From positions 1-64,000 of the IMG/VR virus record IMGVR_UViG_3300042561_000440: a stretch of 64,000 nt of DNA. One strand, written 5' to 3'. Of the stretch, positions 35,626-36,583 are shown in pieces. The DNA comes from a virus. Position numbers and translations under genes: made by a program. The notes below the pieces were generated by a model. It was given only the letters and a program-made list of their open reading frames with translations. It ran no database searches and had not been told where the DNA came from. Position 1 is the first letter of the stretch; the number at the start of each line of letters is the position of its first letter.

Positions 35626-36583
35626 GGATAACTCCAGCAATGAGGGAAGTGTTGCTTCTACCAGTGATGCCGGTTACGCTGCCGTGGATTGCGGGCGTAA
35701 CTCAGTTGGTAGAGTGCTAGCTTCCCAAGCTACCTATCGTTCGGTTGATGTTCGGCACGGCGAATCCAACGAGGATTACCACGCCGACCGGGGGCACTTC
35801 TCTTGCTCCCAGATCAAAGACTTCATCGAGTCGCCGTCTTACTTCCATAGACGGCACATCCTCCGGTGTGAACCATCGCCCTCTTCAGAGAGCTTGGCCA
35901 GAGGAACGCTTGTTCACCTTTGCTTTGAGCTTGGGTGGGAAGCTGCTGCCGACCGGATCAAGGTCATCCCGGCAGAGCATCTGACCGGCACTGGTCTCCT
36001 GTCCACTAAGGCTGACAGCAAGAAGTGGGTGGCCGATCAGGGTGACGCCATTCTGGTCACCCCTCAGGACGCAGAGTTCCTGACCGAGGTGCAGTCTCAA
36101 TGCACCTTGAACAAGGCGGTGTCCAAGCTGCTGGACAGCCTCATCCACAAAGAAGTCTCCATCCGGTGGTCGAGGGACAACGGCACCAAGCTGCGGTGCA
36201 GGCCTGACGCCATCACTAACGATGGCAGGGTGGTTGATTACAAGACCACCAAGTACCGGAATCCTGCCAAGGATTTTTGGAGAGCATGTAAGGACTACAT
36301 GTATGGGCTGCAATCAGCCCTTTACCAAGAGGGTGCAGCCGCCGCTGGGTTCAGTGACGAGCCCCTCATCTTTGTCCTCATCAGCACGGCCTCTCCGTGC
36401 GTGATTGCCAAGACCCTTCCCCAAAGGTTTATCGACCTTGGGAAGACCCAGTTGGATCGTGCATTGGCTGATCTGTCTGCACGGATGTCGTTCGGTGACT
36501 GGACCCCCGATGGATATGGGTCCATCGATGAATTGTATATGCCCGAATTCTGTTTCAAGGATTACCAAGGAGGTGACGCATGA
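35624..36583 (+). CDS. PD-(D/E)XK exonuclease, RecE/exonuclease VIII-like
   Basis: It is up to 319 residues. The family core is present: FSCSQIKDFIESPSYFHRRH, GTLVHLCFE, RPDAI followed by VVDYKTTK (the D...DxK catalytic set) and GLQSALYQEG (QxxxY). It resects double-strand ends 5' to 3' for annealing by the ERF protein encoded next (ATGA overlap). The start is uncertain. The frame is open through the tRNA fragment, no ribosome site precedes ATG 35624, and GTG 35684 or 35713 are alternatives. Confidence 0.8.
   Translation: MDNSSNEGSVASTSDAGYAAVDCGRNSVGRVLASQATYRSVDVRHGESNEDYHADRGHFSCSQIKDFIESPSYFHRRHILRCEPSPSSESLARGTLVHLCFELGWEAAADRIKVIPAEHLTGTGLLSTKADSKKWVADQGDAILVTPQDAEFLTEVQSQCTLNKAVSKLLDSLIHKEVSIRWSRDNGTKLRCRPDAITNDGRVVDYKTTKYRNPAKDFWRACKDYMYGLQSALYQEGAAAAGFSDEPLIFVLISTASPCVIAKTLPQRFIDLGKTQLDRALADLSARMSFGDWTPDGYGSIDELYMPEFCFKDYQGGDA
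35691..35732 (+). other. attP: Candidate attP: 5' half of tRNA-Gly(CCC)
   Basis: The 42 nt read like the first half of a bacterial tRNA-Gly. They contain a GCGGGCG acceptor strand, the D arm ACTC-AGTTGGTA-GAGT, and an anticodon arm CTAGC-TTCCCAA-GCTA with anticodon CCC. The match stops there, and no T arm or 3' acceptor strand follows. It lies next to the integrase gene and inside the coding frame of the nuclease. This is the pattern of a phage attachment core identical to part of a host tRNA gene. Confidence 0.75.

Follow-up and report, generated by a model that had tools for sequence, protein, structure and literature searches.

We report that a 42-nt segment of the window, i.e. the 64,000-base stretch of a 64,362-base IMG/VR record that was analysed here, corresponds to the 5' half of a tRNA-Gly(CCC) gene and lies in frame inside an exonuclease gene. 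These 42 nt most probably (we give this about four chances in five) constitute the core attP sequence of a phage that is temperate, or in any case integrates, and that recombines at the anticodon loop of a host tRNA-Gly(CCC) gene and thereby parts an exonuclease operon from its start codon. Two features are noteworthy: the attP is embedded in a reading frame that is kept and that opens a run of recombination genes, and 5' and 3' tRNA halves replace one another under nearly one and the same integrase.

The segment, GCGGGCGTAACTCAGTTGGTAGAGTGCTAGCTTCCCAAGCTA (35691-35732, + strand), covers tRNA positions 1-42 with the layout GCGGGCG TA ACTC AGTTGGTA GAGT G CTAGC TTCCCAA GCTA, that is, the acceptor 5' strand, the D arm and the anticodon arm with the loop TTCCCAA. 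The preliminary description of this DNA had placed the 5' half of tRNA-Gly(CCC) here, which is confirmed: allowing up to three mismatches, the 42 nt have a single match in the window and none of 100 shuffled sequences gave a match. Its claim that the match runs from the acceptor strand through the anticodon stem holds for the acceptor strand, D arm and anticodon arm except for the last stem base, since the segment ends one base before the anticodon stem is completed. No complete tRNA gene was predicted in the 64,000 bases using ARAGORN, and an Rfam scan at gathering scores returned no match. The end of the segment, CTTCCCAAGCTA (35721-35732, +), comprises the anticodon loop and the 3' side of the stem, is common to all seven Gly-type sites described below and is the putative region of strand exchange; the anticodon loop is described as corresponding to the 7-bp overlap region that is usual for tyrosine integrases (PMC8371274; this and the other papers cited are drawn on in excerpt). 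The attP lies beside a tyrosine recombinase gene and is able, in silico, to rebuild the tRNA: the 5' half of the window joined to the 3' half of each of five relatives (used in place of those of a known host) was recognised by ARAGORN as tRNA-Gly(CCC) in five of five cases, against 3 of 200 joins to shuffled tails.

The tyrosine integrase gene (278 aa; 34651-35487, - strand, start ATG 35487) begins approximately 200 bp from the tRNA half, or 51 bp if the longest ORF, which starts at TTG 35640, is considered; the site is therefore beside the integrase, as had been claimed, and outside its ORF whichever start is taken. The protein is a divergent integrase; it matches phrog_1 (E 9.4e-23) and, in the 278-residue form, PF00589 with 27.5 bits against a cut-off of 27.1 (the L056 integrase, from one of the relatives below, scores 21.3 and falls below it). 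What we take to be the usual HxxR box of such integrases reads KWMRR, and the C-terminus, SPPPIAG, is without an ssrA-like tail. No match to the integrase was detected in the phage collection or, by sequence, among solved structures. A structure model of moderate confidence (pLDDT 74) gave XerA, lambda Int, the integron integrase and Cre as best Foldseek hits with Brujita Int at rank 18, at TM values of about 0.3-0.4 that leave the domain placement uncertain; an arm-binding domain is not apparent, and the protein is too short for one. The window also encodes a serine recombinase of 323 aa with a resolvase domain (42417-43388, -; integrase/invertase according to PHROGs).

Taken together, the adjoining tyrosine integrase, the same position of the site in ten related phages and the bounding of the tRNA pieces at the anticodon loop make it very likely that 35691-35732 is attP, in agreement with the preliminary description. 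The two ends of the record repeat each other exactly and in direct orientation over 127 bp (window 1-127 and record 64236-64362), and the phage genome is thus probably complete; as the site is also flanked left and right by phage genes, it represents attP rather than an integration junction (attL/attR). Presumably the integrase acts at the 42-nt site, with the host tRNA gene as the integration target.

The ORF that contains the attP (35624-36583, +; 319 aa) encodes an exonuclease VIII / RecE-like PD-(D/E)XK nuclease, which matches phrog_412 (E 1e-37) over residues 43-315 and the Pfam families PDDEXK_1 and DUF3799 from residues 58-60. The tRNA half represents codons 23-37, and the attP thus sits between the start codon and the nuclease domain, which starts at about residue 43-60. 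The part upstream of it, referred to as the leader (35624-35690, +), consists of the start codon and the first codons and would be separated from the rest of the gene by integration. Relatives of the exonuclease are present in 305 phage records; among the best 20 of these 305, 15 align from residue 43 or 46 and five from residue 23. The first in-frame ATG, GTG or TTG after the site is codon 91, within the nuclease domain, and an in-frame stop is positioned three codons upstream of the leader ATG; hence, among these three codons, the leader ATG alone yields the whole domain. A Shine-Dalgarno-like AAGGA, identified by eye, is located rather far (about 12-13 nt) from this ATG. A structure model of the exonuclease was too poor (mean pLDDT 39) and was set aside.

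The exonuclease ORF overlaps by 4 bp with the gene for an Erf-like single-strand annealing protein (36580-37203, +), the second gene of the run, and is followed in the same run by an ORF without family match (37196-37684, +) and a DNA helicase gene (37709-39442, +). The exonuclease, erf and helicase genes presumably form one operon. A candidate promoter, TTGACT-16-TAAAAT (35204-35231, +), is present inside and antisense to the integrase gene. Six of the ten phages have 10-11 of 12 matches to it at -420 to -423, and the remaining four have 9 of 12 at -264 to -282. By itself this candidate is near chance (one found versus a shuffle mean of 0.5, sd 0.8), and it is partly forced by integrase codons: its -35 box overlaps the conserved RRVK codons of the integrase, and TTT constitutes 44% of the Phe codons in 12 window genes. 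A hairpin followed by a T run (35568-35584, +) lies upstream of the exonuclease start codon; it was found 53-58 nt before the ATG in the same six phages that have the promoter-like match at -420 to -423 and not in the other four. Elsewhere in the window there are HNH endonuclease genes (1103-1810 and 40551-40928, both +), two adjacent large proteins of 676 and 1248 aa without Pfam or PHROGs match within 26097-34654 (+), a third large protein of 930 aa without Pfam match (26097-28889), and a putative metallopeptidase/VWA protein (DUF2201) beside an AAA_5 ATPase (46777-49653, -), which is unusual-looking cargo for a phage.

Alignment searches using the integrase and the exonuclease provided nine IMG/VR contigs that, together with the window, share this layout beside related tyrosine integrases (contigs and genes are referred to by L numbers). 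The 5' half of tRNA-Gly(CCC) is present in two of the ten phages (the window and L008), its 3' half in five (L004, L005, L006, L007 and L033) and the 3' half of a tRNA with a CAT anticodon in three (L053, L054 and L056; Rfam tRNA scores of 36.9, 31.7 and 22 bits, the last one below the cut-off of 29). Eight of the ten, with the window counted, consequently carry a 3' half at the site. One other IMG/VR contig (L002/L008) has exactly these 42 nt, in the homologous position and with an identical frame; in its alignment with the window, identity is 81% for the segment that includes the site and 66-70% for the four longest segments elsewhere. The contig L003/L004 is 93% identical to the window over 10 kb and has the 3' half of tRNA-Gly(CCC) at the same place, such that integrases that are 98% identical are accompanied by opposite tRNA halves. 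Comparing the window with L004 in 60-bp bins gave identities of 0.43 and 0.33 in the bins at 35641 and 35701 versus 0.80-1.0 in the nearest kilobase on either side, and the differing cassette is roughly 120-150 bp. The window and L004 are paired in both the integrase and the exonuclease trees, neither of which unites the two 5'-types; the partner of L008 in the integrase tree is L033, and the L008 exonuclease is nearest (75-77% identity) to those of L005, L006, L007 and L033, all of which are 3'-types. The 3' halves differ in the T arm and the variable loop with the pairing kept (C-G, A-U and G-U at one stem position; by eye), as expected if they must complete a working tRNA. The integrase gene is itself a mosaic, since the L033 and L008 integrases are 93% identical in their catalytic parts and 47% in their core-binding parts; the core-binding part of L008 is 81-87% like those of L005-L007.

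One of these searches also gave eight more distant relatives (31-33%), of which L059, L062, L063, L064 and L066 were read at the site. By eye, L063, L064 and L066 have a tRNA 3' half whose anticodon loop is ACG-like (Rfam tRNA score 33.8 bits for L063 and 28.1, below the cut-off, for L064) between genes, upstream of the integrase and before an HTH-like ORF, a layout that looks like a conventional attP. For L059 and L062, no tRNA half was recognised in the 700 bp read; both have tRNA-like matches approximately 3.3 kb upstream of the integrase.

With respect to the reading frame, the ORF that starts at the leader ATG is open through the tRNA half and into the next gene in all ten phages. This is so even though the leader length up to the core varies (48, 81, 93, 96, 97 and 144 nt) and the 5'-types and 3'-types read the tRNA in different frames; in all eight 3'-types the anticodon triplet is an in-frame codon. 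Moreover, the 3' half is 41 nt in L006 and 42 nt in L033, but 57 nt separate the core from the conserved exonuclease start in either phage, and the 1-nt difference in length is thus compensated downstream of the tRNA half. A frame that is kept in ten of ten phages despite differing leaders, tRNA halves and tRNA frames suggests that the fusion is selected as a translated unit, at least in the free phage. As such, the kept frame argues for translation through the attP and not by itself for a switch. Codon 21 of L005 and L006, which belongs to the tRNA half, is a GTG and codon 52 of L056 is a TTG, which would make a start past the junction possible in these phages, and L005, L006, L007 and L008 have other in-frame starts upstream of the leader ATG.

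Two of the phages (L005 and L007) have the leader fused not to the exonuclease gene but to a gene that is endonuclease VII-like according to PHROGs; by eye we had taken it for an HNH gene, an identity that was dropped as Pfam gave no match. The displaced exonuclease in these two (L034 and L036) has its own ATG and retains TCGCCCGCTTTTC, which matches the tRNA 3' end and the following bases of L033, and which we read as a probable scar of a second arrival at the site.

In the mechanism that we propose, strand exchange by the small tyrosine integrase would take place in the host tRNA-Gly(CCC) gene at its anticodon loop, TTCCCAA. One junction, on the integrase side, would then consist of the phage leader, the phage 5' half and the host 3' half, i.e. 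a rebuilt tRNA, which for the phage in the window would be transcribed from phage sequence; for the 3'-types the rebuilt tRNA would retain the host promoter. At the other junction the host promoter and the host 5' half would be joined to the body of the exonuclease gene. Because the attP is located between the exonuclease start codon and the exonuclease domain, integration would part the exonuclease, erf and helicase genes from their start codon and upstream region with either type of half, and excision would restore the operon.

By analogy with integration-dependent immunity, the break in the exonuclease gene might be used as a switch that keeps the prophage quiet. That ten phages have an in-frame attP in the gene that opens a run of recombination genes suggests that lytic DNA metabolism could be switched on and off through integration, and such a switch could work without a repressor acting on the exonuclease operon. 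Extending this, we tentatively put forward, at somewhat less than even odds, a lysis-lysogeny switch that depends on position alone, with the lytic recombination operon turned off by integration and on by excision as the mirror of integration-dependent immunity. The attP cassette would pass between phages as one piece; nearly the same integrase would accept either tRNA half, and more distant relatives would use other tRNAs. Recombination between the attP of a 5'-type and that of a 3'-type would yield a phage with an entire tRNA gene, and phage-borne tRNAs at att sites might have arisen in this way. With integrases that are nearly identical and accompanied by opposite halves, the choice of half can be tested in one assay.

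An ordinary attP, in which the placement in the exonuclease ORF is incidental, is possible rather than probable. A dispensable leader would then tolerate the tRNA half, a separate repressor (perhaps of LexA type) would control lysogeny and the break would be without a regulatory role. Consistent with this, the leader residues vary freely among the phages and are outside the nuclease domain, and the window encodes a protein with a LexA-type DNA-binding domain (43886-44263, -), a candidate lysogeny regulator that is also encoded in six of the seven relatives' records searched (those of L004, L005, L006, L007, L008, L033 and L056; the one in which it was not found is a 39-kb fragment). On this ground an ordinary repressor may also act in the phage studied here. 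What speaks against a merely tolerated leader is the constancy of the frame across all ten phages, including the compensated 1-nt change.

Turning to the host, the exact 42 nt were present in none of 84,980 species genomes (planctomycetes included; contigs of at least 3 kb; records very near that of the window were possibly left out). A relaxed 23-nt pattern identified 11 loci in ten genomes, none equal to the 42 nt, which by their titles belong to Clostridium, Cloacimonadota, Hydrogenedentota, a deltaproteobacterium and Thermoanaerobaculia. The nearest matches found, 40 of 42 nt, are in one Hydrogenedentota MAG and one Thermoanaerobaculia MAG, and a planctomycete host, as assumed in the preliminary description, is accordingly unsupported. 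Allowing up to three mismatches, the 42 nt were detected in 2 of 68 genomes from the phylum of the Hydrogenedentota MAG and in 11 of 396 from that of the Thermoanaerobaculia MAG, with two mismatches at best; the CAT-tRNA half was detected in none of the 68. Integrase matches in sets of 5, 68 and 396 genomes numbered 0, 1 and 17, respectively, all of them distant (best E 6.7e-8). In the Hydrogenedentota MAG, L011 and L016 have the same tRNA-Gly(CCC) and upstream bases, with one contig ending inside the tRNA; this may reflect branching of the assembly at the tRNA gene, as expected of an integration site. The long tRNA half should point to the host once a genome with a matching gene has been sequenced.

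Neither attL/attR nor a lysogen was found in the integrase search of the 5, 68 and 396 genomes or with a 24-nt core-spanning pattern in viral contigs. This would fit a scar of a former integration with an integrase or a site that is inactive now, as would the weak match of the integrase to its Pfam family. We consider such a scar improbable: the 42 nt are unchanged between diverged phages, pairing in the T stem is, by eye, preserved in the 3' halves and all ten phages have an uninterrupted integrase frame of 268-295 residues.

The occurrence of both halves within the family could also mean that a complete phage-borne tRNA has decayed to its 5' half here and to its 3' half in relatives. This is very improbable, as the tRNA frame differs between the two types and their leaders resemble each other over the first few codons only, and no phage was found to have both halves: the 24-nt core-spanning pattern of the whole tRNA-Gly identified no viral contig, and with up to three mismatches allowed the window has no tRNA-Gly 3' half. 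Finally, a tRNA mimic or RNA switch in the exonuclease mRNA leader, in place of an att site, is hardly credible and was rejected, for although the tRNA half would be transcribed with this mRNA, this position is occupied in relatives by the opposite half or by a different tRNA, and no single RNA fold is kept.

The preferred reading, an attP whose use would part the exonuclease operon from its start, can be compared with known systems. Attachment sites inside a repressor or an integrase gene, as well as rare 5'-half sites, are already known from the excerpted literature. Among the titles and beginnings of abstracts listed, with few subscription papers covered, we recognised no attP inside a lytic exonuclease gene, which is a weak negative. 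For the T7-like cyanophages P-SSP7 and S-TIP37, integration was shown by PCR, and their attP, like that of the window, is identical to part of a host tRNA and beside the integrase (PMC8776855); it differs in being described as downstream of the integrase and in matching tRNA-Leu, and the excerpted text does not mention an attP inside an ORF for P-SSP7. The comparison with a 42-bp match in P-SSP7, drawn in the preliminary description, is therefore a loose one: its attP is indeed part of a host tRNA (tRNA-Leu; PMC8776855), but the 42-bp match that we found in print is that between a metagenomic cyanophage contig and the MED4 tRNA-Leu (PMC3861242).

Phages with tRNA-dependent lysogeny likewise combine a tyrosine integrase with a tRNA gene target, but in their case, as far as the excerpted account goes, the tRNA is not rebuilt and a whole tRNA gene is carried (PMC10865867), whereas the window has no tRNA gene according to ARAGORN and a half that is long enough to rebuild one. 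A further comparison is with the archaeal pTN3-like integrases, for which attachment is in the tRNA 5' half, the rebuilt tRNA is transcribed from a promoter of the element and the att site splits a gene (PMC8371274). The split gene is the integrase gene in the pTN3 type and the exonuclease gene in the window. According to the excerpts of the same review, 5'-half sites are known for these integrases and seldom met in bacteria, and with few exceptions the rebuilt tRNA is still expressed from the native promoter, as it is the 3' part that elements carry; the view in the preliminary description that a 5' part is unusual, and that it would put the rebuilt tRNA under element-side sequence, agrees with this.

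Another known system is the integration-dependent immunity of mycobacteriophages such as BPs (PMC9262239, in excerpt). It resembles the window in having a short attP inside the frame of a phage gene that is altered by integration into a tRNA gene, and in att sites that need no arm-type sites, in line with the integrase of the window having no apparent arm domain. It differs in that the attP of BPs occupies the 3' portion of the repressor gene, and the stable repressor is produced through integration. In the window, the attP is in an exonuclease ORF instead of a repressor gene, accompanied by an integrase without an ssrA-like tag, and is positioned at the 5' end of the gene that heads a recombination run and that integration would break.
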